This document shows positions 27,067-59,847 of a DNA stretch of 64,000 nucleotides, piece by piece. The translations under genes and the position numbers were made by a program. Location: NCBI RefSeq assembly GCF_004217565.1, contig NZ_SHLA01000001.1, positions 2,852,001-2,916,000 on the forward strand, given 5' to 3'. The stretch's first letter is position 1, and each line of letters opens with the position of its first letter. Below the pieces are notes generated by a model. The model was not told the origin of the DNA, ran no database searches, and saw only the letters and a program-made list of their open reading frames with translations. The stretch comes from Zhihengliuella halotolerans (GTDB taxonomy: Bacteria > Actinomycetota > Actinomycetes > Actinomycetales > Micrococcaceae).

Positions 27067-27146
27067 GGTTGGCCTTCCGTGGTGGTTCGGATGCGGGCGG
27101 CGAAAAGTGAGCGCCGCCACACCTCAATACGAGAAGGACTCTACTT

Positions 27147-27159
27147 GTTGTTCAACAAT
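27147..27159. promoter_or_regulatory. GntR-type operator 1 upstream of the NRAMP-like gene
   Basis: GTTGTTCAACAAT contains the palindromic core TTGTT-C-AACAA (27148-27158), matching the site before pxpA. Its centre is 24 bases from the second copy, close to two helical turns, which would suit cooperative binding or looping. Confidence 0.68.
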
Positions 27160-27170
27160 CCGCGCAAGGG

Positions 27171-27183
27171 GTTGTTGAACAAT
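27171..27183. promoter_or_regulatory. GntR-type operator 2 upstream of the NRAMP-like gene
   Basis: GTTGTTGAACAAT differs from the pxpA-proximal site by one outer base only. It lies 105-117 bases before the NRAMP start and 30 bases past the end of the DapA-family gene. Confidence 0.68.
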
Positions 27184-27212
27184 CTTCGTCGTCGATACGA
27201 GCCGCTGGCAGC

Positions 27213-28139
27213 CTATCCGTCGAGGCCGAGGTCGCGGACGACGTCGGCCACGCGGGACCGCTGCGCCTCGCTCAGGCCTTGGATGGGGAGCGGAAGACAA
27301 CGCTCCGGCGCCAGCCCGAGGTGCTCGGCGATCGCCGCGACCACCCGCAGGCTGCCCCCGAACTCGGCGAACAGGCCCCACAGCGGCGCCAGCCGCGCGG
27401 ACTCCGCGACCGCGTCGGCCCCGCGTCCCTCGCGCGCCGCGCGGCTGATCTTCAGCGCGACGTCGGGGAGCGTTCCGCCGATCACGGAGTACCAGGTGTC
27501 GCATCCGGCGTTCAAGCCCGCCGCGGCGGAGGCGTCGCCTGAGACGCCGATCGTGACGTGCCCGGGGACAACCGCCCGGATCTCGTCCACTCTCGTCCGT
27601 GCTTCGCCGGGGTCCGCGGGGACTCCGGGGATTTTGATCGACGCGATCCCGGGCAGCTCGGCGATCCGGCCGTAGAGTTCGGTCGTGAACTCGAAGCGGG
27701 TCGTCCCCGGGTTGTCGTAGACGATCACCGGAAGCTCCGTGGCCTCGGCCACCGTGCCGAACAGTCCGTAGACGTCGTCCGCGGTGAGCGGCTGGTACGT
27801 CATCGGGGCGAGCAGGATCCCCCGCGCGCCGGCGTCCTCGGCGCTGCGCACGTTCGCCAGCACCTGCGAGGTGCGCAGGGCCCCGACACCAACGAAGACG
27901 GGAGTCGTTCCGGCGTTGGCGACCGCAAGGGCCGCGGCCCGGGCGCGCTCCTCGGACGTGAGGTACGCGTAGGACCCGGTGGATCCGAGGACAGTGATCG
28001 AGTCGACGCCCGCGCCGGCGAGACGCTCGATCTGGCGAGCGAAGGAGCGCTCGTCGAGCCGGTCGTCGGCGAGCGGGGTGAGCGGAAAGGCGCTGAGTCC
28101 GGTGAACAGGGAGGCTGTGGTCGGAGGGTCGACGGTCAT
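27213..28139 (-). CDS. DapA / N-acetylneuraminate lyase family aldolase
   Basis: A 308-residue (beta/alpha)8-barrel protein. It shows the substrate-loop sequence GSTGSYAYLTSEER, the catalytic tyrosine in PVIVYDNPG and the Schiff-base lysine in IASIKIPG. Members add or remove pyruvate-like units: dihydrodipicolinate synthase, sialate lyase, or keto-deoxy-sugar and hydroxyproline-pathway enzymes. The loop differs from the GTTGE of true DapA, so lysine synthesis is not the obvious role. Its start overlaps the EamA gene stop (ATGA), so it is the last gene of a four-gene operon with an exporter, a B3/B4 protein and a cupin regulator. Confidence 0.88.
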   Translation of the reverse strand: MTVDPPTTASLFTGLSAFPLTPLADDRLDERSFARQIERLAGAGVDSITVLGSTGSYAYLTSEERARAAALAVANAGTTPVFVGVGALRTSQVLANVRSAEDAGARGILLAPMTYQPLTADDVYGLFGTVAEATELPVIVYDNPGTTRFEFTTELYGRIAELPGIASIKIPGVPADPGEARTRVDEIRAVVPGHVTIGVSGDASAAAGLNAGCDTWYSVIGGTLPDVALKISRAAREGRGADAVAESARLAPLWGLFAEFGGSLRVVAAIAEHLGLAPERCLPLPIQGLSEAQRSRVADVVRDLGLDG

Positions 28140-29056
28140 GGGGTCTCCTCCAGCAGGGGGCGCTTGTCTTCGGGACGGGTCCGGGCATCAGCCGGCTCGG
28201 GATCGAGGGGGCGCGCGCCGTGGCGTTGTGCTCCGGCCCCGGCCAGGACGACCAGCACGATCCCGGCGATCTGGTACGGCGACGGCGTCTGAAGCAGCAC
28301 GAGCAGGCCGATGAGCACCCCGAGGGCGGGTTCGACGGCCATGAGCGTGCCGAATGCGGAGTGCGACATCCTGCGCAGGGCGAGCATCTCGAGACCGAAG
28401 GGCAGGACGGGCGCGAGGAGCGCCAGCCCGAGGGCGATCAGCAGGATCCGGCCGTCGATACTTCCGGACGCCTCGGGCACACCGATGAACGCCGTCATGA
28501 CCGCGGCGATCGGAATTGTGATGGACAGGCCGCTGATCCCCGAGAAGCGGTCGCCCACGCGCTGCGTCAGCAGGATGTAGACACCCCACCCGAGGCCCGC
28601 GAGGGCCGCGAAGCCGATCCCGGCAAGGTCGATCGCGCCTTGCCACGGCTCGGTGAGCAGAACGACTCCGGCCAGGGCGAGGCCGGGCCACGCAAGCATG
28701 CGGCGGCTGCCGCTGCGGATCGCCGCGACCGCCAGCGGGCCGAGGAACTCGATCGCGACCGCCGTGCCCAGCGGGATGCGATCGATTGCCGCCAGGAACG
28801 CCGTAGTCATCAGCCCCGTCGCCGCCCCCAGACCCAGCAGCGCGGGGACGTCCGCGCGGCGGATCAGGTGCAGCGGCGGGCGGGCGATCAGCATGAAGAC
28901 GAGCGCCCCCATGCTCAAGCGCAGCCACGAGGTCCCGGCGGCACCGACCTCGGAGACGAGCCCGACCGACAGCGCGTTGCACAGCTGGATCAGCAGCATC
29001 GCGGCCACCGCCATCGACCACGGCGGCACCCCGGCACCCGTGCCCCGCCGCATCAC
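28136..29056 (-). CDS. EamA-family exporter (RhtA-like)
   Basis: A 306-residue protein with ten membrane segments in two EamA repeats. The opening AAMLLIQLCNALSVGLVSEVGAAGTSWLRL and ALGLALLAPVLPFGLEMLALRRMSHSAFGTLMAVEPALGVLIG match the RhtA/YdcZ-type threonine-homoserine exporter group. The GTG start overlaps the B3/B4 gene stop and the end overlaps the DapA-family start. Both sides are thus translationally coupled. An amino-acid-like export substrate is likely by family. Confidence 0.88.
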   Translation of the reverse strand: MMRRGTGAGVPPWSMAVAAMLLIQLCNALSVGLVSEVGAAGTSWLRLSMGALVFMLIARPPLHLIRRADVPALLGLGAATGLMTTAFLAAIDRIPLGTAVAIEFLGPLAVAAIRSGSRRMLAWPGLALAGVVLLTEPWQGAIDLAGIGFAALAGLGWGVYILLTQRVGDRFSGISGLSITIPIAAVMTAFIGVPEASGSIDGRILLIALGLALLAPVLPFGLEMLALRRMSHSAFGTLMAVEPALGVLIGLLVLLQTPSPYQIAGIVLVVLAGAGAQRHGARPLDPEPADARTRPEDKRPLLEETP

Positions 29057-29793
29057 GGCGCACCGATCCAGCGGGTGGCGACCGTGACATCCGGGCCGAG
29101 CCTGCGCAGCGCCGCGGCGAGCTCATCGGCGGCACTCTGCAGGGCGTCGTCGTCCAGCGGCTCGAGGGCGTCGAGGATGAACACCGCCGACGTCGTCTGG
29201 TCGGTGAGGGCGGTGCGGCGGCACTGGCGCCAGTTCCAGCGCCGGCACGTGACACCCGACGCGTCGCGCCACACCACTTCGCCGGGGTCCGGATGCTCGA
29301 GCACCGTTTCACCGCCGGCGGCGGTGTCGAACGACTCCTCGCCGGTGGCGCGGACCAGGCGCGGCGCCCCGTCGTAGCGGGCCAGGTCCTCGCCGCCGAG
29401 GGGGATCCGGTGCAGCACCGAGATCGCGTTGTAAACGTCGGTGAGCCGGTTGACCCTGGGCAGCCCGGCGGCGGCGCGCCGCATGAGCGCCTCCAGACTG
29501 TTCCGGGTCCGCTGCGGCTTGGCCCCGAAGGACCGGTACGCCTCCCGCCATGCGGCGACGTGCGGCACCTCGGTGACGGGCCCTTGGGCGAGGTCCTGCG
29601 CCGCCGAGGCCTCCGCGGCGGCGAGCAGTTCTTCGCTCATCTGGTCGCCCGGGCCGGGCTCGATCCCGTCGACGGCGACCAGCACCACCCGGTAGTCCGG
29701 GCGCAACTCGAACACGTCGGAGGCGACGTGCGCCGCTTCGAGCACGGCGTGCAGGTCGCTGGGGCTGCCGGGGGTTGTGGTCTGCTCAGGCAT
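29053..29793 (-). CDS. B3/B4 (tRNA-editing-like) domain protein
   Basis: From ATG 29793 (overlapping the cupin-regulator stop by eight bases) the product has 246 residues. The central part, AAWREAYRSFGAKPQRTRNSLEALMRRAAAGLPRVNRLTDVYNAISVLHRIPLGGED, is the B3/B4 domain of phenylalanyl-tRNA synthetase beta subunit as a free-standing protein. Stand-alone versions may hydrolyse misacylated tRNA or act on other aminoacyl compounds. No experiment-based role is known to me. The operon with an amino-acid-type exporter supports a role connected with a non-standard amino acid. Confidence 0.84.
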   Translation of the reverse strand: MPEQTTTPGSPSDLHAVLEAAHVASDVFELRPDYRVVLVAVDGIEPGPGDQMSEELLAAAEASAAQDLAQGPVTEVPHVAAWREAYRSFGAKPQRTRNSLEALMRRAAAGLPRVNRLTDVYNAISVLHRIPLGGEDLARYDGAPRLVRATGEESFDTAAGGETVLEHPDPGEVVWRDASGVTCRRWNWRQCRRTALTDQTTSAVFILDALEPLDDDALQSAADELAAALRRLGPDVTVATRWIGAP

Positions 29794-30391
29794 GGGGGGT
29801 CTCCGTTCGAGGACCGGGGCCGACGCCCGGTTCAAAGACTGTCAGGGTGAATCGGGTGAGGTCATCACCCGGGTTGGCGTAGGAGTGCTCCTCGTCGCCG
29901 GCGAACGCGAGCGCGTCCCCGGGGGCGAGCGTGAACGACTCGTCTGCCACCGCGACGACGAGCGCCCCCTCCCGCACCTGCAGGAGCTCGCGCGTCCCCT
30001 CCGAATGCGCCTCGCTCACGTGCGCCTCGCCCGGCGCGAGGGACCAGTCCCACAGCTCCACGACGTCGGGCGGCTCGGTGCCGGCGACGAGCACGCCCCG
30101 CCCGCCGGCCTCGCCCTGCCACAGCGCCGCGCCCTCGCCGGCTCGAGTGAGCTTCGTGCGCTCGCGGCGCGGCGGCTCGACGAGCGCGGGCAGGCCGACG
30201 CCCAGCGCGTCGCTGAGGCGCAGGAGGGTCCCGATGCTCGGGTTCACGGCCCCCTGCTCGACGTTCACGACCATCCGGCGGCTCACGCCGGCGTGCTCGG
30301 CGAGCTGGTCCAACGTCCAGCCGTGCTCGGTCCGCTCGTGTCGCACGCGCGACCCGATCACGGAGGCGAGTGATTCTGCATCCAAGTCCAT
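29786..30391 (-). CDS. XRE-family regulator with C-terminal cupin domain
   Basis: A 201-residue protein from ATG 30391. Residues 8-65 form a helix-turn-helix (LDQLAEHAGVSRRMVVNVEQGAVNPSIGTLLRLSDALGV). Residues 120-190 form a cupin (HSEGTRELLQVREGALVVAV...LAPGDALAFAGDEEHSYANPG) that should bind a small ligand. The start codon lies three bases from an inverted repeat whose near copy lies about 90 bases upstream, which implies self-regulation. It heads the operon with the B3/B4, EamA and DapA-family genes. Confidence 0.9.
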   Translation of the reverse strand: MDLDAESLASVIGSRVRHERTEHGWTLDQLAEHAGVSRRMVVNVEQGAVNPSIGTLLRLSDALGVGLPALVEPPRRERTKLTRAGEGAALWQGEAGGRGVLVAGTEPPDVVELWDWSLAPGEAHVSEAHSEGTRELLQVREGALVVAVADESFTLAPGDALAFAGDEEHSYANPGDDLTRFTLTVFEPGVGPGPRTETPHA

Positions 30392-30393
30392 AA

Positions 30394-30409
30394 GTGCACG
30401 ATAATGCAC
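30394..30409. promoter_or_regulatory. Inverted repeat at the XRE-cupin start, probable operator
   Basis: GTGCACGATAATGCAC has arms GTGCA/TGCAC separated by six bases. On the minus strand it contains a -10-like TATCGT six bases before the ATG, with a weak -35-like TTGCGA about 18 bases further. Transcription would then be leaderless and blocked when the site is occupied. Confidence 0.6.
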
Positions 30410-30484
30410 CTGCCTTCTCGGTCGCAACCCAGTCGCTCCAGCCGCCCTGCCATTCGGTGGGTTCCGGGACGAGTCCTGCCTGAA

Positions 30485-30500
30485 GTGCACTATCACGCAC
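30485..30500. promoter_or_regulatory. Second copy of the XRE-cupin operator
   Basis: GTGCACTATCACGCAC read on the other strand is GTGCGTGATAGTGCAC. This matches 13 of 16 positions of the site at 30394-30409. One arm base is changed. The copies are 91 bases apart. Confidence 0.5.
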
Positions 30501-30691
30501 GATTTATCGACAACCCCGAAACCGCCCCCGGCGCAGGAGGGCTGCTGGTCACCGCGGCCACTCGAGCGGGACAGATCGACCCGTAGGCGCACAGCCCGAG
30601 ACGAATCAGCCCTGGGCCACCCCGCGCGGACACGACTAAGCTGGCGATGAAGGGGCCACCCCGCCCACGCATCCGAACCCTAGGAGCACCC

Positions 30692-31543
30692 ATGCGGATC
30701 GCCGTCATGCAGGCCTCGGCCTCGATCCTGCACGCCGAGGGGGGCGGCCACGAAGCGGTCGCCACGAACCTGGCGCTCATCACGGACGCCGCCGAACGCG
30801 CCTCCGCCGCCGGCGCGGACCTGCTCGTCACGCCCGAGCTCTTCACGTGCGGCTACGCTCCCGCGGCGGTGGCACCGCACCTGAGCGACGACGTCGTGCG
30901 CCGGATCGACGACGGCGCCGCGGCCTCGGCACGCACCCACGGCCTCCACCTCGTCTACAGCGCGCCGCGGCGCGCGGGCGCGGACTGGACGATCACCGCG
31001 ACACTCGTGTCCCCGGCCGGCGAGCGCCTCGCGACGCACACCAAGGTGCACCTCTTCGGCGGGGAAGAGCAGGAGACCTTCGCCGCCGGGACGTCGGCCC
31101 CGCCCGTGGTCGACGTGGCCGGGGTGGGCGTGGGACTCATGGTCTGTTACGACGTCGAGTTCCCCGAGATGGTGCGCGCGGCCGCTGCCGCAGGGGCCGA
31201 CGTCGTCGCCGTCCCCACCGCCCTGACCGCCGAGTTCGCGGAGGTGCAGGACGTGCTGCTGCCCGCCCGCGCCCTCGAGTCGCAGGTCGCGATCGCGTAC
31301 GCCAACCACGCCGGCCCCGCCCCGAGCGCCGACGGCGAGATCCAGCTCGGCGGCGGCAGCCTGATCCTCGGGCCCACGGGAAAGCTCCTCGCGAGCGCGC
31401 CGCGAACCGACGCCGGCACGGCCGGGCCGGCCCTGATCACCGCGGACGTGACCGCGGCCGACGTCGCCGCGGCGCGGACACGCGTGCCCTACCTCCGCGA
31501 GCGCCGACCGGACCTGTACCGGGACTGGTCCGACCGCACCTGA
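30692..31543 (+). CDS. Carbon-nitrogen hydrolase (nitrilase superfamily amidase)
   Basis: A 283-residue protein from ATG 30692 behind TAGGAG. The catalytic triad is visible: Glu49 (TPELFTCGY), Lys118 (HTKVHLFG) and Cys152 (GLMVCYDVEFPE). The pattern and length fit the aliphatic amidase or omega-amidase branch that hydrolyses amides such as deaminated glutamine or N-carbamoyl compounds. The substrate is not evident. A hairpin shared with the convergent SDR gene follows the stop. Confidence 0.9.
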   Translation: MRIAVMQASASILHAEGGGHEAVATNLALITDAAERASAAGADLLVTPELFTCGYAPAAVAPHLSDDVVRRIDDGAAASARTHGLHLVYSAPRRAGADWTITATLVSPAGERLATHTKVHLFGGEEQETFAAGTSAPPVVDVAGVGVGLMVCYDVEFPEMVRAAAAAGADVVAVPTALTAEFAEVQDVLLPARALESQVAIAYANHAGPAPSADGEIQLGGGSLILGPTGKLLASAPRTDAGTAGPALITADVTAADVAAARTRVPYLRERRPDLYRDWSDRT

Positions 31544-31544
31544 G

Positions 31545-31580
31545 CGCCGACGCCCTACTCCTGGGGGTCCCGCGTCGGCG
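31545..31580. terminator. Hairpin between convergent amidase and SDR genes
   Basis: CGCCGACGC (31545-31553) pairs perfectly with GCGTCGGCG (31572-31580). It begins two bases after the amidase stop and ends at the base before the SDR stop codon, so it could serve both convergent genes. Confidence 0.65.
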
Positions 31581-31586
31581 TCAGCC
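31549..31586. repeat. Left copy of a 38-bp direct repeat flanking the SDR/HxlR pair
   Basis: Over 38 positions this sequence differs from 32979-33016 at about five. Both begin GACGCCCTACTCCT and share GTCGGCGTC near the right end. The left copy covers the amidase-side hairpin and the last codons of the SDR gene. Confidence 0.7.
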
Positions 31587-32276
31587 CAGTTGCGGGTACA
31601 GCGCCGACAAAGGCGCGGCGAGCCCCGCCTTGACCTGACGGCTCGCCTCATCCGCCAGGACTTCGTGCTCACCGGCTTCCAGTCCGTCGTACGCGGCCGA
31701 CACGACGTCAGCTGGGTCGTTCTTCTCCACCTCGACACCCTCGGTCATACCTGTATCCGTGTATCCCAGGTGCAGACCGACAACCTGAACACCATCCTCC
31801 ACGAGACCAACGCGCTGGACGTTCGTCGCGGACCAGAGCGCGGCTTTGGTGGTGCTGTAGGTGTCGGCGAGGGCGAGCCAGCTCAGCGCGGACAGCACGT
31901 TCACCATCCCGCCTCGATGCTTCTTGAGCGCGGAGAGGAAGGCGTTGCTGACTTCGAGCTGCCCCCAGAAGTTGGTCTCGAACTGCGCCCTAGCGGCAGT
32001 GAGGTCGTCGTCGAGCAGGGAGGCGTCCGTCCATGCGCCGGCGTTGTTGATCAGCACCGTCACATCCTGCGCCTCTGCCGCTGCCGCCCGGGTCGAGTCC
32101 CGGCTCGTGACATCTAGGACAAGCGGCACAATCCGCTCGTCCTCCCAGTGACCGGGCGTGCGCGCGGTCGCATAGACCTTCGCCGCACCGCGGGCGAGCG
32201 CCTGCGCGACGAATTCCCGCCCGAGCCCTCCGTTTGCCCCGGTAACCAGCACTACCGCGCCGTCAAGTGTTGTCAT
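31581..32276 (-). CDS. Short-chain dehydrogenase/reductase
   Basis: A 231-residue classical SDR with the nucleotide-binding TGANGGLG near residue 13, the NNAG motif, a catalytic serine in NVLSALS and YSTTK providing Tyr and Lys. It uses NAD(P)H to reduce or oxidise an unknown carbonyl or alcohol in the cytosol. It is divergent from an HxlR regulator with a palindrome between them, a common redox- or aldehyde-responsive pairing. The GC content looks lower than in neighbouring genes. Confidence 0.9.
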   Translation of the reverse strand: MTTLDGAVVLVTGANGGLGREFVAQALARGAAKVYATARTPGHWEDERIVPLVLDVTSRDSTRAAAAEAQDVTVLINNAGAWTDASLLDDDLTAARAQFETNFWGQLEVSNAFLSALKKHRGGMVNVLSALSWLALADTYSTTKAALWSATNVQRVGLVEDGVQVVGLHLGYTDTGMTEGVEVEKNDPADVVSAAYDGLEAGEHEVLADEASRQVKAGLAAPLSALYPQLG

Positions 32277-32363
32277 CCTCTTGCCTTTCCTCGTTCCTGT
32301 GGCAACTGGAGCAGTGCTCCATGCCGCCCGTGATGGGGTCCATCCGTATCGAGGCTAGCCCAG

Positions 32364-32388
32364 TTAGTTGGATTTTCCAACCAACTAA
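32364..32388. promoter_or_regulatory. Probable HxlR operator between SDR and regulator genes
   Basis: TTAGTTGG (32364-32371) and CCAACTAA (32381-32388) form perfect eight-base arms around a nine-base AT-rich centre. It lies between the divergent starts, where an HxlR dimer would control both. Confidence 0.65.
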
Positions 32389-32452
32389 GTTCGGTTTCGC
32401 TCACACCGAACTCGGAGGCTCGTTGGAAAGTCAAACTTGGTACTATCGGGAG

Positions 32453-32887
32453 ATGAGGACGACACAGGATCGTGAGGGCGTGCGCCAGTGTTCTGTTGCC
32501 CGGACCCTCGATGTGGTCGGTGAGAAGTGGTCGCTCCTGGCCGTGCGCGAGATGATGCTGGGCACGCACCGCTTCGCAGAGATGGTCAAGCACACCGGTG
32601 CGCCACGGGACATCCTCACGACGCGGTTGCGCACTCTGGAAGAAAAAGGCCTGGTCGAGCGCCGTCAGTACAGCAGCCGCCCGGAACGATTCGAGTACCA
32701 CCTGACAGAGCTGGGCAAGTCCCTGGGGCCCGTGATCACAGTGCTGCGACAGTGGGGCGATGATCATCTCGCGGGGCCGACGGGCCCGCCGCTGACGTTC
32801 ACCCATTCCTGTGGTGAAGAGCTCGACGCCGACGTCGTTTGCGCGCACTGCGGCAAGCCTGCCATCGGCTCTACCGTGCGGCGATAG
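32453..32887 (+). CDS. HxlR-family winged-helix regulator
   Basis: A 144-residue protein from ATG 32453. The family signature CSVARTLDVVGEKWSLLAVREMMLGTHRFAEMV includes the conserved N-terminal cysteine used for redox or electrophile sensing in some members. The C-terminus has an added CGEELDADVVCAHCGKP segment with C-x2-C, as in a subset of HxlR proteins. A -10-like TACTAT ends six bases before the ATG, which suggests leaderless transcription. It probably controls the divergent SDR gene. Confidence 0.9.
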   Translation: MRTTQDREGVRQCSVARTLDVVGEKWSLLAVREMMLGTHRFAEMVKHTGAPRDILTTRLRTLEEKGLVERRQYSSRPERFEYHLTELGKSLGPVITVLRQWGDDHLAGPTGPPLTFTHSCGEELDADVVCAHCGKPAIGSTVRR

Positions 32888-32978
32888 CAGGCCAGAACAG
32901 CGTGACGGTCATCGGCCGGTGGAATCCCACGTAGTCGTGCAGCCGGCGAGGCACGTCTCGTGGGTGCCGAGCCCAGCG

Positions 32979-33016
32979 GACGCCCTACTCCTTGAGGTCC
33001 AGGGTCGGCGTCGGCC
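32979..33016. repeat. Right copy of the 38-bp direct repeat flanking the SDR/HxlR pair
   Basis: Near-identical to 31549-31586 in the same orientation. It covers the last codons and stop of the convergent APC permease gene. The right copy still contains complementary ends (GACGCC and GGCGTC). Confidence 0.7.
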
Positions 33017-34349
33017 GGCGGAACCCGCGAGTTACCCACGCGAGGTAGAGCGCGCCGAGCGCCATCCAGATCAGGCCGACCACGAGCGTCCGCGGCGAGA
33101 GGCTCGTCCACAGCCAGAGGGTCATCGCGAAACCAACGCCGGGCAGGACCAGATAGGCGATCAGGTCCCGGACCGAGCGCCGGCTTTTGTCGATGACGTA
33201 GTGCTTGATGACCGAGAGGTTGACCGCAGAGAACGCGATGAGCGCCCCGAAGCTGATCATCTCCGCCAAGAGACCGAGACTCACAACCACCGCGGCGCAC
33301 GAGACGACCGAAACGCAGAGGATCGCCGGCACGGGCGTGCTGAACCGGACGGAGAGCCGCCCGAAGAAGGAGGTGGGCAGGACGCCGTCGCGCCCCATCG
33401 CGTAGAGGATGCGCGCCACGGAGGCCTGCGACGTCAGCGCGGAGCCGAGCGCGCCGGAGACGTAGGCCGCCGTGAAGAACACGGCCAGGAACTGCCCGCC
33501 CGCGGCCGCCATCACGTCGAGCGCGGCCGAATCGACGTCCGCGAAGTCGTTCGACGGGTAGACCAGCTGGGCTAGGTAGGACAGCCCGACGAAGACGAGG
33601 CCCGCGGTCGCCGTCGTGATCAGGATGGCCCGCGGCACCGAACGGCGGGCGTCTTTGGCCTCCTCCGCCATCGTGGAGATGGAGTCGAAGCCGAGGAAGG
33701 ACAGGCACAGCACCGCGGCGCCGGCGAAGAGCGGCCCGACGCCGGAGAGCGATCCGTCCCCGTTGAACGGGGCCAGCGGGTCGACCGCGCCCGAGCCGGC
33801 GATCGCCGCCCAGCCGAGCATCACGAACGTGGCGATGAAGAGGGCCTGCACCGCGATGATCACGGAGTTCGCGCGGGCGATCGAGACGACGCCGACGACA
33901 TTGAGCACCGTCACGAGCGCGATCGCGGCGACGACGAAGACCCACGCGGGCACACCCGGCAGCGCGGCGTTCAGGTAGAGGCCGATCACCAGGTAGTTGA
34001 TCATCGGCAGGAAGAGGTAGTCGAGCAGCAGCGACCAGCCGGCGAGGAACCCCGTCCCCGCCCCGAAGCTCTGCTGCGTGTAGGTGTAGGCGGAGCCGGC
34101 CACGGGGTACGCCCGCACCATGCGGGCGTAGGAGTTGGCCGTGAAGACCATGGCGGCAAGCGTGACGAGGTAGGCCGCGGGTACGCGCCCGCCGCTCATC
34201 TCGGTGACGATCCCGTACGTCGTGAAGACCGTGAGCGGGACCATGTAGACGAGCCCGAAGAGCACCAGCGAGGGTACGCCGAGAACCCGCCTGAGTTGGC
34301 CCGCGGCCGGTCCGGGAGCACCGCGGGTGAGGATGGTTTCTCGTGACAT
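32985..34349 (-). CDS. APC-family amino-acid permease
   Basis: A 454-residue protein with twelve membrane segments. It has the helix-1 region VLFGLVYMVPLTVFTTYGIVTEMSGGRVPAAYLVT and the helix-6 region LSFLGFDSISTMAEEAKDARRSVPRAI, which are core amino acid-polyamine-organocation motifs. It resembles putrescine/amino-acid importers of the PuuP/YhdG type. It lies 75 bases after the amidohydrolase gene on the same strand, so it may import that enzyme's substrate or its amine product. Regulation by the divergent TetR protein is likely through the upstream gene. Confidence 0.9.
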   Translation of the reverse strand: MSRETILTRGAPGPAAGQLRRVLGVPSLVLFGLVYMVPLTVFTTYGIVTEMSGGRVPAAYLVTLAAMVFTANSYARMVRAYPVAGSAYTYTQQSFGAGTGFLAGWSLLLDYLFLPMINYLVIGLYLNAALPGVPAWVFVVAAIALVTVLNVVGVVSIARANSVIIAVQALFIATFVMLGWAAIAGSGAVDPLAPFNGDGSLSGVGPLFAGAAVLCLSFLGFDSISTMAEEAKDARRSVPRAILITTATAGLVFVGLSYLAQLVYPSNDFADVDSAALDVMAAAGGQFLAVFFTAAYVSGALGSALTSQASVARILYAMGRDGVLPTSFFGRLSVRFSTPVPAILCVSVVSCAAVVVSLGLLAEMISFGALIAFSAVNLSVIKHYVIDKSRRSVRDLIAYLVLPGVGFAMTLWLWTSLSPRTLVVGLIWMALGALYLAWVTRGFRRPTPTLDLKE

Positions 34350-52449: not shown

Positions 52450-55400
52450 TTACACCTCGCGACGACCCGACTTGGAGGATGCGAAGCGGACCAGAACGGC
52501 ACCGCCCGCGATCAACAGCAGGGCCAGCAGTGCGAACATGGCCGTGGTAGCACCGGTGCTGGGGAGCTTGCCCCCACCGTTGCCGCCGTCGCCGCCGTTA
52601 GCGCCGTTACCGCCGTTACCGCCGTCGCCGCCGTTTCCACCGTTGCCGCCATCATCGTCGCCGGTGATGGTGAGCGGGGTGTCATCGGAGTTGCCGTCGT
52701 CGTCAGACGCGGTCACGACGTAGTCGCCGGGACCGGCGCCGGCCGGGAGATCGAACGTCACCGTGAAGGTGCAGTCCTCTCCGACCTCTGCCGACACGGT
52801 GTGCACCTGAGCGCCATCGGCGGTGGCGACCTCGACCGTGACGGTGCCCGGCGCGAAGCCGACGCCCGAGACGGTCACCGTGCCACCAACCCCGACGGTC
52901 GAAGGATCGACCGTAACCTCGGGATCGGCCGCGCAGGTGTCGATGGCGCCGTCGTCGAGGACGGTGTACTCGGCCGAAGCCGACTCGCCCGTCGCGACGT
53001 CGGTACCGACGACCGTGTAGTCGCCTGCCTCCGCGTCCTCGGGAACGACGACGTCGGCCGTCAGGCCACCGTCCTCGTCCGCCACGGCGTCCACGGTCGC
53101 AACCGTGTTGCCGTCAGCGTCGACCAGCTCGACCGTCACGTCGCCGTCCGGGGTGTAGCCCGCGCCCGTCGCCGTGGCGGTGTCGCCCGGAAGACCCTCG
53201 GTCGGGTCGACCGTCAGGGCGAGCTCGCCGGCCGCCAGGGCCAGAACCTCGAACGGCGTCTCCGCCGTGCCCTCGGTGTCGACATCGGTGCCGCGGATCG
53301 TGTAATCCGCACCCTCGACTGCGTCGGCGGGAACGACCAGATCCGTGAGGATCTCGCCGTTCTCGTCAGCGACGGTCTCGACCGTGGCGATCGTGTCGCC
53401 CTCGGCGTTGACCAGCTCGACCGTCACGTCGCCGTCCGAGGTGTAACCCTCGCCGGAAACGCTTGTCGATTCACCCGGCAGAGCAGCAGCCGGGTCGGCA
53501 GCGATCGTCATGACGCCTGCCGCCGGATCCAGGACCTCGAGGTCTGCGGAGCCCTCGTTGCCCTCGGAATCGACAGCCTCGACCGTGTAGTCGCCCGGCT
53601 CCGTACCTTCCGGAACCGGCAGCTCACCAACGAAGTCGCCGTTCTCATCCGTCGGAACCGTCACCGGCTCACCCACCGGGTTGCCCTCAGGGTCAACCAG
53701 CTGGATCTCGACCTCGTCGTTCGGAGCGAAGTTCTCACCCGAGACCTCAGTCGACTCGCCCGGCTCAACAGCCGTCGGATCAACAGTCACCATCGGCTCA
53801 CCGGCGGCGTCATCGTCGATCAGACCAGCATCAACCGTGTCGAGAACCGACATCTCCTCGGTCAACGTCACCACATCGGTGCGCCCGTCCTCCGGGTTCG
53901 CATCCGAATCAGTAGCGTCGTTACCCGAAGCAGCCTGCGGCGAGAAGGTCTTGCCCTCCGGCGCCACGAACTCGACGACGTAATCGCCCAGCTCCAGACC
54001 GTTCAGACCGTAGAGGCCGTTCTCATCCGTAGTATCGGAAACCGGGTCACCCGCGGCGTCCTCAACCACGTTGCCATCAGCATCGAGCAGGTTCACGACC
54101 ACGCCCTGAACACCGGACTCACCGGCATCCTGAACGCCATCAGCGTTGGTGTCGTCCCAGACGAAGTCACCAATCGAACCATCGCCCGAGCCCGGAACCA
54201 GGACCTCGAGCGGCGCGGAGCCCTCGTTGCCCTCGGAGTCCACAGCCTCGACCGTGTAGTCGCCCGGCTCCGTACCTTCCGGAACCGGCAGCTCACCAAC
54301 GAAGTCACCGTTCTCATCCGTCGGAACCGTCACCGGCTCACCCACCGGGTTGCCCTCAGGGTCAACCAGCTGGATCTCGACCTCGTCGTTCGGAGCGAAG
54401 TTCTCACCCGAGACCTCAGTCGACTCGCCCGGCTCAACAGCCGTCGGATCAACAGTCACCATCGGCTCACCGGCGGCGTCATCGTCGATCAGACCAGCAT
54501 CAACCGTGTCGAGAACCGACATCTCCTCGGTCAACGTCACCACATCGGTGCGCCCGTCCTCCGGGTTCGCATCCGAATCAGTAGCGTCGTTACCCGAAGC
54601 AGCCTGCGGCGAGAAGGTCTTGCCCTCCGGCGCCACGAACTCGACGACGTAATCGCCCAGCTCCAGACCGTTCAGACCGTAGAGGCCGTTCTCATCCGTA
54701 GTATCGGAAACCGGGTCACCCGCGGCGTCCTCAACCACGTTGCCATCAGCATCGAGCAGGTTCACGACCACGCCCTGAACACCGGACTCACCGGCATCCT
54801 GAACGCCATCAGCGTTGGTGTCGTCCCAGACGAAGTCACCAATCGAACCATCGCCCGAGCCCGGAACCAGGACCTCGAGCGGCGCGGAGCCCTCGTTGCC
54901 CTCGGAGTCCACAGCCTCGACCGTGTAGTCGCCCGGCTCCGTACCTTCCGGAACCGGCAGCTCACCAACGAAGTCGCCGTTCTCATCCGTCGGAACCGTC
55001 ACCGGCTCACCCACCGGGTTGCCCTCAGGGTCAACCAGCTGGATCTCGACCTGATCGTTCGGAGCGAAGTTCTCGCCCGACACCTCAGTCGACTCGCCCG
55101 GCTCAACAGCCGTCGGATCAACAGTCACCATCGGCTCGGCCGTACCCGGCTCGAGAACCTCGAACGGAGCATCGATCGACTGCTCAGTGGCAGGATCCGT
55201 GGCCTCGACCACGTAGTCCGGCCCCGGAACAGCATCCTCGGGAACAACCAGATCCGTCAGGATCTCGCCGTTCTCGTCAGCAGGAGTGACAACCTCGGTC
55301 ACCGGGTTGCCCTCAGCGTCGAGCAGCTCGACAGTGATGTCCTCACCCGGCGTGAAACCGGTACCGGAGATCTCCGTCGTCTCGCCCGGCTCAACAGCAG

Positions 55401-58400
55401 CCGGGTTCGGCGTGAGCGTCATGACGCCAGCCGCCGGATCCAGGACCTCGAGGTCTGCGGAGCCCTCGTTGCCCTCGGAATCGACAGCCTCGACCGTGTA
55501 ATCGCCCGGCTCAGCATCCTCAGGAACGGTCAGCGGCGTCGTGAAGTTGCCCTCCTCGTCCGTCGGAACCGTCACCGGATCGCCTACCGGGTTGCCCTCA
55601 GGGTCAACCAGCTGAACATCAACCGAATCGTTCGGAGCGAAGTTCTCACCCGTCACGTCGGTCGACTCGCCCGGCTCAACAGCCGTCGGATCAACAGTCA
55701 CCATCGGCTCACCGGCGGCGTCAGCGTCGATCAGACCAGCATCAACCGTGTCGAGAACCGACATCTCCTCGGTCAACGTCACCACATCGGTGCGCCCGTC
55801 CTCCGGGTTCGCATCCGAATCAGTAGCGTCGTTACCCGAAGCAGCCTGCGGCGAGAAGGTCTTGCCCTCCGGCGCCACGAACTCGACGACGTAGTCGCCA
55901 ACCTCGAGACCAGCCAGAGCGTAGTTGCCGTTCTCATCCGTGGTGTCGGAGACCGGGTTGCCCTCGGCATCCTCAACCACGTTGCCATCAGCATCGAGCA
56001 GGTTGACGACCACGTCCGGAACACCGGGCTCGCCGGCATCCTGAACGCCATCAGCGTTGGTGTCGTCCCAGACGAAGTCACCGATCGAACCGATACCGGC
56101 GGCGTCATCGTCGATCAGACCAGCATCAACCGTGTCGAGAACCGACATCTCCTCGGTCAGCATCACCACATCGGTGCGCCCGTCCTCCGGGTTCGCATCC
56201 GAATCAGTAGCGTCGTTACCCGAAGCAGCCTGCGGCGAGAAGGTCTTGCCCTCCGGCGCCACGAACTCGACGACGTAATCGCCCAGCTCCAGGCCGTCTA
56301 GGGCGTAGTTGCCGTTCTCATCCGTCAGCGTGGCCACCGGGTTGCCCTCAGCGTCCTCAACCGGGTTGCCCTCAGCATCGAGCAGGTTGACAGCGACATC
56401 CGGAACACCGGCCTCGCCCTCGTCCTGGACACCGTCAGCGTTGGAGTCATCCCAGACGAAGTCGCCGATCGAACCCTCACCGGCACCCGTGCCCGGCTCG
56501 AGAACCTCGAACGGAGCATCGATCGACTGCTCAGTGACAGGATCCGTGGCCTCGACCACGTAGTCCGGCCCCGGAACAGCATCCTCGGGAACAACCAGAT
56601 CCGTCAGGATCTCGCCGTTCTCGTCAGCAGGAGTGACAACCTCGGTCACCGGGTTGCCCTCAGCGTCGAGCAGCTCGACAGTGATGTCCTCACCCGGCGT
56701 GAAACCGGTACCGGAGATCTCCGTCGTCTCGCCCGGCTCAACAGCAGCCGGGTTCGGCGTGAGCGTCATGACGCCAGCCGCCGGATCCAGGACCTCGAGG
56801 TCTGCGGAGCCCTCGTTGCCCTCGGAATCGACAGCCTCGACCGTGTAATCGCCCGGCTCAGCATCCTCAGGAACGGTCAGCGGCGTCGTGAAGTTGCCCT
56901 CCTCGTCCGTCGGAACCGTCACCGGATCGCCTACCGGGTTGCCCTCAGGGTCAACCAGCTGAACATCAACCGAATCGTTCGGAGCGAAGTTCTCACCCGT
57001 CACGTCGGTCGACTCGCCCGGCTCAACAGCCGTCGGATCAACCGACACCGTCGGCTCAATGCCCGTCGGCTCAGTCACGGTCAACACTGCCTCAGCAGTC
57101 TCGCCCGTCGTGTCATCCGTGCCGACAACCGTGTAGTCGCCCGGCTCGGCATCCTCAGGAACCGGAACCTCGACGGTGAAAGCACCATCCGCGTCCGTGT
57201 CCGCCGGGATCGGATCCCCGACATCAGTACCAGCCGGATCAACCAGCTGAACCGTCGCGGTCGAATCCGGGGTGTAGCCGGTGCCGTCCGCAGTCGTCGG
57301 ATCACCAGCAGGAACCTCGGTCGGATCCAGCACGATCGCCGGATCAATGCCCGTCGGCTCAGTCACGGTCAACACTGCCTCAGCAGTCTCGCCCGTCGTG
57401 TCATCCGTGCCGACAACCGTGTAGTCGCCCGGCTCGGCATCCTCAGGAACCGGAACCTCGACGGTGAAAGCACCATCTGGATCCGTGTCCGCCGGGATCG
57501 GATCCCCGACATCAGTACCAGCCGGATCAACCAGCTGAACCGTCGCGGTCGAATCCGGGGTGTAGCCGGTGCCGTCCGCAGTCGTCGGATCACCAGCAGG
57601 AACCTCGGTCGGATCCAGCACGATCGCCGGAGCACCGGGCTCGGTGACCGTCAGTGCTGCATCCGTGAACTCACCGGTGGTGTCATCCGTACCGACCACC
57701 GTGTAGTCGCCCGGCTCGGAACCCTCGGGAACCGGAACCACGGCGGTGAAAGTCCCCTCCGCGTCCGTGTCCGCCGGGATCGGATCCCCGACATCAGTAC
57801 CAGCCGGATCAACCAGCTGCACGGTTGCGGTCGAATCCGGGGTGTAGCCCGTACCCGTTGCTTCAGTAGATTCGCCAGCCGGAACGGTCGGCGGATCAAG
57901 GCCGATGTTCAGTTCCAGGACGTCTGGCTCGGTGACCGTGATGTTCTCCGAAACCATGGTGTCCGTGGCGACGTCCGTCGCCTGGACGATGTAGTCGCCA
58001 GGCTCGGTGCCGGCCGGAACCGGGAGCTCGGTCGACGGGAAGTCGCCGTTCTCATCCGTCGTCACCGGGACCACGTCGCCGACGGGGGTGCCCTCGGCGT
58101 CCGTCAACTGGAGCTCCACGTCGCTGTCCGGGGTGAAACCCGTGCCGTCGACGTTTGTGGAGTCACCCGCGGGAACCTCGGTCGGGTCGACCGTGATCGC
58201 CGGATCGATCTCCGCGAACAGGTTGCAGGCGTCCATGCGGACACCCGAGTTGCCGAAGCTCAAACGAGCGCCGTCGACAACTCCCAGAACGCCGAAGCTC
58301 AGCGCAGAGACTTCGTGGGTGCCCTTGAACTCCGTACCGTCCGGTGCCGTGCACATCGTCGGCTCCGGCTGGTGGTTGATCTGGACCGAGAACACGTTGT

Positions 58401-59847
58401 CCGCGAACAGCTCCAGGAATGGATCCACCAGAGCGCGAGCCGGGATGGTGATCGAGTCCGTCTTGATGAGCTCGAAGATGTCGTAAAGGATCTGCCCGTC
58501 GTCGGCCAGCAGCGTGTCGGCGACCGTCGTTGCGAGAGTCTCCATCAGCGGCTGAACAACGGTCTCGAAGCCGTCGAGCGTAGCGCAAAGCACTCCACCG
58601 CCGAGCCCCTCAGACGCACAAGCAGTCGACGTGTACGTTCCATCGAGGCTCACCGAGAACGTCTTCGATGCGGAGCTTCCAACGGCGCTCGCTTCAGCGT
58701 CCACGTTGATCGTGATGGCATCGAGCGACGCAGCAACTGCGCCGACGGCGATGTGAATGGCATTCTCAATCACGTCGTGGATCGAGTCCGCGATCATCGG
58801 GTAGATGTCCGAGTCGATGATCTCGGTGTTCGGCCACTGGTTGTTCAGGCCCTCGGGGGCCGGGTTTCCGTCGGGGCCCGTCCGAGCGCCCTCGTCATTG
58901 CCCATGAACTCGGCGATGTCGATGTAGATCGTTCCCGAACCCAGGTCGATGTCGAGAATGCTCGTCTCTGCCGTTAGGTCTTCAGACAGCAGAGCCTCTT
59001 CGACGGCGCCGGCGACGTTCGACTCGATACTCACGTCCGCAGTGACACCTGCAGGCAGGACCGACAAGATCGGATCCAGCAGGTTGGCGGCCTCCATGAT
59101 GGTGTTGACGGAATCTTCGATCGCGCCGTCGACCGCGGAGATCGCGTCGAGCATCTGCGCCATCGCGGCCGCGAAGGCGTCAGAGCGAAGGCCGACGAGC
59201 AAGTCGCCGACCTTGTACTGACCGTCGCCGGTGTGTTCGGCGTCCGGGTTCACGAAGGCGCCGTCGACAGCCTGCACCTCGGAGCCCAGTGCCCCGAATT
59301 CGATCCAGGCTTCGTCGACGCCGGGAATGGCGCCGAAACCGATGGAGTCGGCGAGCTGGACCATATCGATCCGGGCGTTGTCCATGTCGGCGGTGTCGAG
59401 ATTGTCGAGCGTCAACGAACCGTCGGCTCCGACGGTGGTGCTGATCGCCCGCGCGTCCTGCGGTGACGTCGCCTCCGACAGCGACTGCAGGACGCCGAGT
59501 TCGCCGAAGTCCAGAATGCTGGTGACGGGAATGTCGATACCGCCCAGCGTGACGACCTCGCTGCCCAGCAACGTGGCGTCGAGCGCCTGGTTGTCGGGAC
59601 CCGGGTTCGACGGGAACGTCGCGCGCGACAGACCGCCTCCGGCCAGTTCCTGGCCGAGCAATTGCGAATCGACAATGCTCGCTGACGATTCCGCCGGCTC
59701 CTCCGGAGCCGTATTCACGTCAGCGAACGCAGGAAGTCCGTATCCCGCAACAGCCAGCGTCGAAGCGACGCCGATGGCGAGAGACCTCCTCAGTCCTCTT
59801 TTGAGCTCTGCACCTTTCAGATGCGAGCGCGGCTTTTTAGTACTCAC
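52450..59847 (-). CDS. Giant sortase-anchored surface protein with tandem Ig-like and SdrD B-like repeats
   Basis: A 2465-residue protein starting at GTG 59847 behind GGGAGGG. It has a signal peptide (about 1-43), a choice-of-anchor-G-like N-terminal domain to about residue 545, four Ig-like units (DPTEVPAGDPTTADGTGYTPD) and a long alternation of Ig-like (DPTAVEPGES...GDYTVEAVDSEGNEG) and SdrD B-like (GSIGDFVWDDTNADGVQDAGE) modules. A Gly/Asn linker leads to the sortase motif LPSTG, a membrane segment and RREV. The protein is very acidic. Asp/Asn-rich loops suggest Ca2+ binding. It probably acts in adhesion or as a cell-surface layer; no sortase gene is nearby. Confidence 0.9.
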   Translation of the reverse strand: MSTKKPRSHLKGAELKRGLRRSLAIGVASTLAVAGYGLPAFADVNTAPEEPAESSASIVDSQLLGQELAGGGLSRATFPSNPGPDNQALDATLLGSEVVTLGGIDIPVTSILDFGELGVLQSLSEATSPQDARAISTTVGADGSLTLDNLDTADMDNARIDMVQLADSIGFGAIPGVDEAWIEFGALGSEVQAVDGAFVNPDAEHTGDGQYKVGDLLVGLRSDAFAAAMAQMLDAISAVDGAIEDSVNTIMEAANLLDPILSVLPAGVTADVSIESNVAGAVEEALLSEDLTAETSILDIDLGSGTIYIDIAEFMGNDEGARTGPDGNPAPEGLNNQWPNTEIIDSDIYPMIADSIHDVIENAIHIAVGAVAASLDAITINVDAEASAVGSSASKTFSVSLDGTYTSTACASEGLGGGVLCATLDGFETVVQPLMETLATTVADTLLADDGQILYDIFELIKTDSITIPARALVDPFLELFADNVFSVQINHQPEPTMCTAPDGTEFKGTHEVSALSFGVLGVVDGARLSFGNSGVRMDACNLFAEIDPAITVDPTEVPAGDSTNVDGTGFTPDSDVELQLTDAEGTPVGDVVPVTTDENGDFPSTELPVPAGTEPGDYIVQATDVATDTMVSENITVTEPDVLELNIGLDPPTVPAGESTEATGTGYTPDSTATVQLVDPAGTDVGDPIPADTDAEGTFTAVVPVPEGSEPGDYTVVGTDDTTGEFTDAALTVTEPGAPAIVLDPTEVPAGDPTTADGTGYTPDSTATVQLVDPAGTDVGDPIPADTDPDGAFTVEVPVPEDAEPGDYTVVGTDDTTGETAEAVLTVTEPTGIDPAIVLDPTEVPAGDPTTADGTGYTPDSTATVQLVDPAGTDVGDPIPADTDADGAFTVEVPVPEDAEPGDYTVVGTDDTTGETAEAVLTVTEPTGIEPTVSVDPTAVEPGESTDVTGENFAPNDSVDVQLVDPEGNPVGDPVTVPTDEEGNFTTPLTVPEDAEPGDYTVEAVDSEGNEGSADLEVLDPAAGVMTLTPNPAAVEPGETTEISGTGFTPGEDITVELLDAEGNPVTEVVTPADENGEILTDLVVPEDAVPGPDYVVEATDPVTEQSIDAPFEVLEPGTGAGEGSIGDFVWDDSNADGVQDEGEAGVPDVAVNLLDAEGNPVEDAEGNPVATLTDENGNYALDGLELGDYVVEFVAPEGKTFSPQAASGNDATDSDANPEDGRTDVVMLTEEMSVLDTVDAGLIDDDAAGIGSIGDFVWDDTNADGVQDAGEPGVPDVVVNLLDADGNVVEDAEGNPVSDTTDENGNYALAGLEVGDYVVEFVAPEGKTFSPQAASGNDATDSDANPEDGRTDVVTLTEEMSVLDTVDAGLIDADAAGEPMVTVDPTAVEPGESTDVTGENFAPNDSVDVQLVDPEGNPVGDPVTVPTDEEGNFTTPLTVPEDAEPGDYTVEAVDSEGNEGSADLEVLDPAAGVMTLTPNPAAVEPGETTEISGTGFTPGEDITVELLDAEGNPVTEVVTPADENGEILTDLVVPEDAVPGPDYVVEATDPATEQSIDAPFEVLEPGTAEPMVTVDPTAVEPGESTEVSGENFAPNDQVEIQLVDPEGNPVGEPVTVPTDENGDFVGELPVPEGTEPGDYTVEAVDSEGNEGSAPLEVLVPGSGDGSIGDFVWDDTNADGVQDAGESGVQGVVVNLLDADGNVVEDAAGDPVSDTTDENGLYGLNGLELGDYVVEFVAPEGKTFSPQAASGNDATDSDANPEDGRTDVVTLTEEMSVLDTVDAGLIDDDAAGEPMVTVDPTAVEPGESTEVSGENFAPNDEVEIQLVDPEGNPVGEPVTVPTDENGDFVGELPVPEGTEPGDYTVEAVDSEGNEGSAPLEVLVPGSGDGSIGDFVWDDTNADGVQDAGESGVQGVVVNLLDADGNVVEDAAGDPVSDTTDENGLYGLNGLELGDYVVEFVAPEGKTFSPQAASGNDATDSDANPEDGRTDVVTLTEEMSVLDTVDAGLIDDDAAGEPMVTVDPTAVEPGESTEVSGENFAPNDEVEIQLVDPEGNPVGEPVTVPTDENGDFVGELPVPEGTEPGDYTVEAVDSEGNEGSADLEVLDPAAGVMTIAADPAAALPGESTSVSGEGYTSDGDVTVELVNAEGDTIATVETVADENGEILTDLVVPADAVEGADYTIRGTDVDTEGTAETPFEVLALAAGELALTVDPTEGLPGDTATATGAGYTPDGDVTVELVDADGNTVATVDAVADEDGGLTADVVVPEDAEAGDYTVVGTDVATGESASAEYTVLDDGAIDTCAADPEVTVDPSTVGVGGTVTVSGVGFAPGTVTVEVATADGAQVHTVSAEVGEDCTFTVTFDLPAGAGPGDYVVTASDDDGNSDDTPLTITGDDDGGNGGNGGDGGNGGNGANGGDGGNGGGKLPSTGATTAMFALLALLLIAGGAVLVRFASSKSGRREV
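53574..55135 (-). repeat. Tandem 669-bp repeat inside the surface-protein gene
   Basis: The segments 53574-54242 and 54243-54911 are almost identical at the DNA level (offset 669 bases, 223 codons). A third partial copy runs to about 55135. Each unit encodes one Ig-like plus one SdrD B-like domain. Conservation includes silent positions, which points to recent duplication. Confidence 0.88.
55144..57041 (-). repeat. Two near-identical copies of a ~550-bp block inside the surface-protein gene
   Basis: 55144-55694 and 56491-57041 match with an offset of 1347 bases and only scattered differences. The block covers two Ig-like domains. The intervening region carries two SdrD B-like domains related to the 669-base units. 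Confidence 0.82.
57041..57900 (-). repeat. 288-bp Ig-like tandem repeat inside the surface-protein gene
   Basis: Two copies offset by 288 bases (96 codons), about 57041-57328 and 57329-57616, are nearly identical. A third unit to about 57900 is more diverged. Each encodes one DPTEVPAGDPTTADGTGYTPD-type domain. Confidence 0.82.

Follow-up and report, generated by a model that had tools for sequence, protein, structure and literature searches.

The locus described here lies in a window of 64,000 nucleotides (G000:C1:2852001-2916000), by which we mean the whole stretch of DNA that was analysed, from a single-contig genome of 3.58 Mb. A divergent pair of genes, encoding an SDR oxidoreductase and an HxlR-family regulator, stands between an amidase gene and an amino acid permease gene that face each other, and each end of the intervening block is marked by one copy of a direct repeat. 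The features, in order along the window, are as follows.

30692-31543, plus strand: carbon-nitrogen hydrolase (amidase), the left neighbour (PF00795, E 2.6e-35)
31546-31586, no strand assigned: left repeat copy, a likely relic of the permease 3' end, reading LTPTRDPQE* on the minus strand
31581-32276, minus strand: classical SDR oxidoreductase, PRK08264-like (PF00106, E 3.1e-25)
32364-32388: intergenic palindrome TTAGTTGG-N9-CCAACTAA, with the core GTTGGATTTTCCAAC at 32367-32381; putative HxlR operator
32453-32887, plus strand: HxlR-family regulator with an N-terminal Cys13 and a C-terminal CxxC (PF01638, E 1.2e-24)
32888-32975, no strand assigned: tail of the insert, 88 bp, no gene recognised
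32976-33016, no strand assigned: right repeat copy, made up of 32 nt from the end of the permease coding sequence and 9 nt of adjoining spacer
32985-34349, minus strand: APC amino acid permease, intact, the right neighbour (PF13520, E 1.9e-38)

Both genes of the block score above the cut-offs for their families (SDR, 89.2 vs 26.6 bits for PF00106 and 294.9 vs 249 bits for NF006119; HxlR, 86.4 vs 20.8 bits for PF01638). The repeat copies are 41 nt long, are identical at 35/41 positions and are spaced 1430 apart. A first-pass annotation of this DNA had described 38-bp near-identical direct repeats; their existence is borne out, with a slightly greater length and the identities just given. The ungapped diagonal score of the pair is 26, compared with at most 13.5 when the left region was dinucleotide-shuffled 200 times (0/200 reached 26). 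When the whole window was scanned for pairs with at least 35/41 identity at spacings of 100-5000 bp, 50 were found; 49 lay inside a single repetitive reading frame (52450-59847), and the sole pair outside it was the one that flanks the SDR and HxlR genes. A 22-base core of the repeat, searched through the whole genome (3.58 Mb) with up to three mismatches, was present without mismatch at the two repeat sites and at two further sites with 2 and 3 mismatches, while a reversed-pattern control gave three sites. Because the core occurs without mismatch at two sites only and the control is similar, the repeat is not a genome-wide dispersed motif. The annotation had allowed that the repeats might reflect a terminator motif common across the genome; the absence of a third close copy speaks against this. 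A candidate third piece of the repeat on the 3' side of HxlR (32912-32927 vs 33011-33026, 14/16) scored 11, less than the maximum of 13.5 among 300 shuffles, and was rejected.

The right copy holds the permease 3' end intact (PTPTLDLKE* on the minus strand). The left copy shares both phase and stop codon with it, and is most readily understood as a relic of that same end of the gene. The far edge of the left copy overlaps the SDR stop codon (31581-31583), and the final SDR codon and stop (31581-31586) sit within the repeat. The SDR TGA stands opposite a CGA of the permease copy, and this stop may have arisen after the insertion.

Relatives provide an unoccupied version of the site. Among the five genomes of the genus that were compared, G000 included, the amidase gene is present in four (again counting G000), and both neighbours are present in G002 and G004, in which the permease orthologue is 96% and 85% identical, respectively, to that of the window. 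In these two genomes the stop codons of amidase and permease are 45 bp (G002) and 75 bp (G004) apart, with one gene end and no SDR/HxlR. In G001 the amidase is present but no permease passes E<=1e-60, and G003 lacks both genes at the limits used. At E<=1e-20, a search outside which weaker paralogues fall, SDR was found in one of the five genomes, G000. It had been suggested from the first reading that the repeats lie where amidase and permease would otherwise have met convergently, and that an empty site might be sought in close relatives. A direct meeting at a single gene end is what we find in both (2/2) of the other genus genomes that carry the two genes, and with G002 and G004 lacking the insert, the pair is not carried by all relatives.

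The composition of the block differs from that of its surroundings, as the annotation had remarked. The GC content of the block (31587-32975) is 0.644 vs 0.684 for the window, and the difference is larger at third codon positions: GC3 is 0.793 for SDR (GC 0.661) and 0.779 for HxlR (GC 0.648), compared with 0.944 for the amidase (GC 0.756), 0.936 for the permease (GC 0.689) and 0.90-0.94 for eight other nearby genes; that is, 0.78-0.79 against about 0.94 in the flanks. In a codon-likelihood ranking of 43 mechanically chosen ORFs of the window, the HxlR ORF, taken here from 32267, which is upstream of its likely start (32453), was 4th lowest and SDR was 10th lowest. The codon use of both genes, which the annotation had proposed to measure, is atypical, but not uniquely so within the window, where other ORFs are equally odd. 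On the sequences compared, the SDR/HxlR cassette is lineage-specific, and it was probably acquired horizontally, given the empty site, the low GC and GC3 and the occurrence of like pairs in other genera.

The closest SDRs found were 63% identical, in a Microbacteriaceae MAG, and 62% identical, in Frondihabitans and Curtobacterium. SDR relatives at E<=1e-70 were present in 26/395 family genomes, G000 included; among 396 genomes of the order, G000 was the only one with SDR at E<=1e-76, and HxlR at E<=1e-36 was found in five, G000 included. In the SDR tree the window sequence is weakly placed (88/27) on a long branch, beside mostly Microbacteriaceae rows and two same-family rows, and for this reason we name no donor. 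No close match to a donor was found in viral, phage or plasmid collections: the repeat core had no exact match, and no SDR relative was confirmed, in viral contigs; phage matches were weak (10 records, with listed identities of 26-33%); the 96 plasmid matches at E<=1e-20 were all below 60% identity; and the first-listed distant DNA match on a plasmid covered 39% of the query at 64% identity. Our literature searches, which were not aimed at the species, found no paper on the SDR/HxlR insert locus.

We examined 51 SDR loci (L042-L066 and L122-L147, the last 26 with only 1.5 kb of flank). An adjacent, divergent HxlR relative was present in five of these (L044, L046, L135, L142 and L144); L043 and L123 have an HxlR relative that is not both adjacent and divergent, and in 44/51 loci there was none at E<=1e-5. 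Most of the SDR relatives examined are unpaired with such a regulator. The pair had been described as a transferred redox-response pair. Transfer is supported by the GC content and by like pairs elsewhere; a redox function is putative, from the family assignment and the N-terminal cysteine. As for the 88-bp tail of the insert, a search for a remnant gene (query 32840-32990, 59 genomes) returned a full-length match only to itself, the best other matches being 27-34 nt at 85-93%, with best E values of 1.5e-4 and 4.4e-4 per genome. Several short matches elsewhere (about 30-34 nt, 82-90%) converge on window positions 32939-32974 of the tail, which may represent a widespread GC-rich motif of coding sequence or of hairpins.

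Comparison with G002 indicates which copy of the repeat has changed. There are five differences in the coding part, four of which are changes in the left copy and one in the right. All four left-copy changes alter the amino acid (P>L, L>R, L>P and K>Q), whereas the single right-copy change is silent (ACG>ACC). This is the pattern to be expected if the right copy stayed under selection in the permease and the left copy did not. Of 33 related permeases, 18 show LDL or LDM among their last 11 residues, a motif that is disrupted in the left copy. At 31583, the P>L site, the repeat coincides with base one of the SDR stop codon. If this base is part of the insert, as it may be, the true repeat would be about 37-38 bp. 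The left copy has kept an ancestral C (31573) that was lost from the right copy, and hence looks like host sequence and not like the tail of a distant donor gene. A sixth difference (31548/32978) lies in poorly aligning spacer and was not polarised. Divergence between G000 and G002 at 4-fold sites is 34/309 (0.11) for the permease and 36/178 (0.20) for the amidase; by our arithmetic a free 41-bp copy would be expected to show about 2-4 changes, compared with the 4-5 seen. An insertion soon after the split of G000 and G002 would roughly fit these values. The copies are only 85% identical, which implies either an old event or copies that were already different when they arose.

The intergenic palindrome provides a candidate link between the two genes of the block. 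An identical 15-mer is present between both genes in three of the five loci with adjacent divergent pairs (L135, L142 and L144), while L044 and L046 have such pairs without the palindrome; the chance expectation for the palindrome in the window is 0.01 at <=1 mismatch. All three loci belong to a single genus of the family (g10), and their SDRs group together in a well-supported clade; as close kin, they amount to about one independent case. They share 54-55% (SDR) and 49-51% (HxlR) identity with the window proteins. Since the 15-mer is unchanged despite protein identities of 49-55%, the GTTGGATTTTCCAAC palindrome is a probable HxlR operator. A looser form, GTTGGAWWWTCCAAC, occurs once each in 5/275 family genomes, and a reversed control occurs in two. 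In G000 and G144 the site is between SDR and HxlR; the other three sites (L192, L193 and L194) have no HxlR or SDR within 1.5 kb and are probably due to chance.

From what is known of the two families, HxlR probably acts as a repressor of the divergent SDR gene by way of this palindrome. SDR would be derepressed when the N-terminal cysteine of HxlR is modified by an electrophile or oxidant, and the enzyme would then reduce a reactive carbonyl or quinone-like compound. A comparable arrangement is provided by RrpA and RrpB, for which the available text of PMC8765430 describes a regulator divergent from an oxidoreductase gene, an inverted repeat between them and a cysteine near the N terminus (Cys13 in RrpA and Cys8 in RrpB). 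By analogy, we infer that Cys13 of the window HxlR is equivalent to these residues. That text assigns RrpA and RrpB to the MarR family and, in the part available, does not use the name HxlR; the best NCBIfam profile for the window HxlR is RrpB (NF047364), at 75.8 bits, well below the cut-off of 175. The systems differ in that the partner in the window is an SDR and not a quinone or flavin reductase, with a function that is predicted. The shared palindrome makes the regulatory link between HxlR and SDR directly testable.

How, then, did the block arrive? We propose that a foreign block of approximately 1.39 kb, consisting of the divergent SDR/HxlR pair and its own operator, entered the short amidase-permease spacer after the split from the nearest sampled relative, by gain rather than by loss of an older block. 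The insertion would have left two copies of its target, about 38-41 bp each, composed of the last coding bases of the permease and nine spacer bases. The permease-side copy would have stayed functional, while the amidase-side copy lost constraint and decayed, a step supported by the substitution pattern. The permease 3' end would most likely have served as the target of site-specific recombination, in the manner of tyrosine-recombinase elements, and the integrase would have been either supplied in trans or since deleted, leaving a minimal CIME-like remnant. We put the probability of this whole account (acquired block, target duplication, site-specific integration and repression of SDR by HxlR) at about 0.5. 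The original suggestion of an insertion that duplicated its target is supported by the empty site and the duplicated permease end.

The site-specific route fits because of the position, the length of the repeat and the gene left intact on one side, and we slightly favour it over other routes to a duplication. According to PMC5704250, the direct repeats that tyrosine-recombinase elements use for recombination are 8-60 bp long and often lie at gene 3' ends, where one repeat keeps the end of the target gene intact. CIMEs, cis-mobilizable elements that are decayed ICEs or IMEs, are described in the same text as being without integration and transfer genes while keeping attL and attR, with cargo between imperfect direct repeats. 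The window block resembles them in that one of its repeats includes the intact 3' end of the target gene and in that no integrase or transfer gene was recognised between the repeats, where SDR and HxlR are the only genes recognised. It differs in being very small (about 1.4 kb), in the att role of its repeats being putative and in that a limited look found no parental ICE or IME at the site. No recombinase gene of any kind was recognised in the block. A search for a comparable repeat of the gene end in the roughly 1.5 kb that follow each of 33 related permease genes, a distance that would miss larger elements, found none (best score 13.5 vs 26). A crude scan with a tyrosine-recombinase motif gave one hit in the window, which looks like the wrong frame of an ordinary gene, and one hit with nearly the same letters in a G002 stretch, likewise apparently in the wrong frame; both were discarded.

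It is also possible, with a probability clearly below that of site-specific integration, that end joining captured the foreign DNA without a recombinase, when a break with staggered ends in the 3' end of the permease gene was filled in. A perfect duplicate followed by drift would fit the decayed left copy (about 2-4 changes expected vs 4-5 seen), and the block has neither a recognised integrase nor clear terminal inverted repeats (best score 6.0, without a shuffle control). However, Ku (PF02735) was not found in G000, and 41 bp is a long stagger. Within the genus, Ku (PF02735) was found in one of five genomes, G004 (L165), indicating that non-homologous end joining is patchy. A DDE-transposon insertion would likewise leave target-derived direct repeats on either side of the insert, but no transposase and no clear terminal inverted repeat (the same best score of 6.0) were recognised in the block, and 41 bp is far longer than the usual target duplications of these transposons. 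An example given in the available text of PMC5704250 is 8 bp.

Less likely is a Campbell-like single crossover with a donor circle that carried a related permease 3' end beside SDR/HxlR, so that one of the two copies would be the donor's. Since permease tails resemble one another throughout the family, some 41 bp of homology could have come from a donor, and the two copies differ by 15%. Against this, the left copy has a broken LDL and has kept the ancestral host C at 31573, so it resembles host sequence in decay rather than a working donor gene, and tblastn (E<=1e-5, within the available flanks) found no permease relative in the 51 SDR loci and neither SDR nor HxlR in the 33 permease loci.

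Ancestral presence of the block, followed by repeated loss in relatives through recombination between the repeats, appears very improbable. Deletion between direct repeats is easy and leaves one copy, yet G002 (96%) and G004 (85%) would require separate precise losses, their spacers of 45 and 75 bp are longer than the 11 bp on the left side in the window, and the composition of the block is atypical. We hold it just as improbable that the block is a stand-alone, integrase-less cassette that uses the permease 3' end as an attachment site and was moved in trans. If that were true, small regulator/enzyme pairs could hop between the ends of protein genes, as integron cassettes do between attC sites.

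The first-pass annotation had each repeat holding a piece of a shared terminator region. Their content is mainly the permease gene end, and a terminator role is less well supported. A T-run terminator scan found none, and since shuffles average only 0.5, the scan neither shows nor excludes a terminator. A hairpin can be drawn in each copy, with z-scores of only -1.1 to -1.9. That the repeats are a chance likeness between two convergent-gene terminators is scarcely credible, for although both copies can fold into a hairpin, these z-scores are modest, no shuffle out of 200 reached the score of the pair, the match is in frame with the stop codon of the permease and the genome has no third close copy.

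The locus adds one more case to a type of event that is already known, and the gene acquisition, though clear, is fairly ordinary. It stands out in three respects: the block is minimal in size, its target is a protein gene and the decay of the displaced gene end can still be read. Should the repeats be att sites, the locus would show how small, integrase-less cargo can persist at the 3' ends of protein genes. It is a clean example of a minimal regulator/enzyme pair entering a chromosome without harm to the neighbouring genes, in which the unoccupied site, the duplication of the gene end and the decay of the duplicate are all legible.

Several other features of the window were observed. A second block (27184-30571), on the other side of the amidase, contains DHDPS-like, EamA, B3/4-domain and HTH-cupin genes. 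It has no counterpart at this position in G002 and G001, where its upstream gene adjoins the amidase, and no flanking repeat comparable to that of the SDR/HxlR block was found around it. At 27140-27185, two TTGTTG/CAACAA-type inverted motifs lie upstream of a leftward-reading gene; similar pairs are present in G002 and G001, and the motifs look like a conserved operator pair. Upstream of the gene for the HTH-cupin regulator, at 30390-30510, are two inverted motifs of the TGCAC type, AAGTGCACGATAATGCAC and GAAGTGCACTATCACGCAC, perhaps the operator of that regulator. Finally, the reading frame at 52450-59847, 7.4 kb on the minus strand and rich in repeats with spacings such as 288 nt, perhaps encodes a repetitive surface protein.
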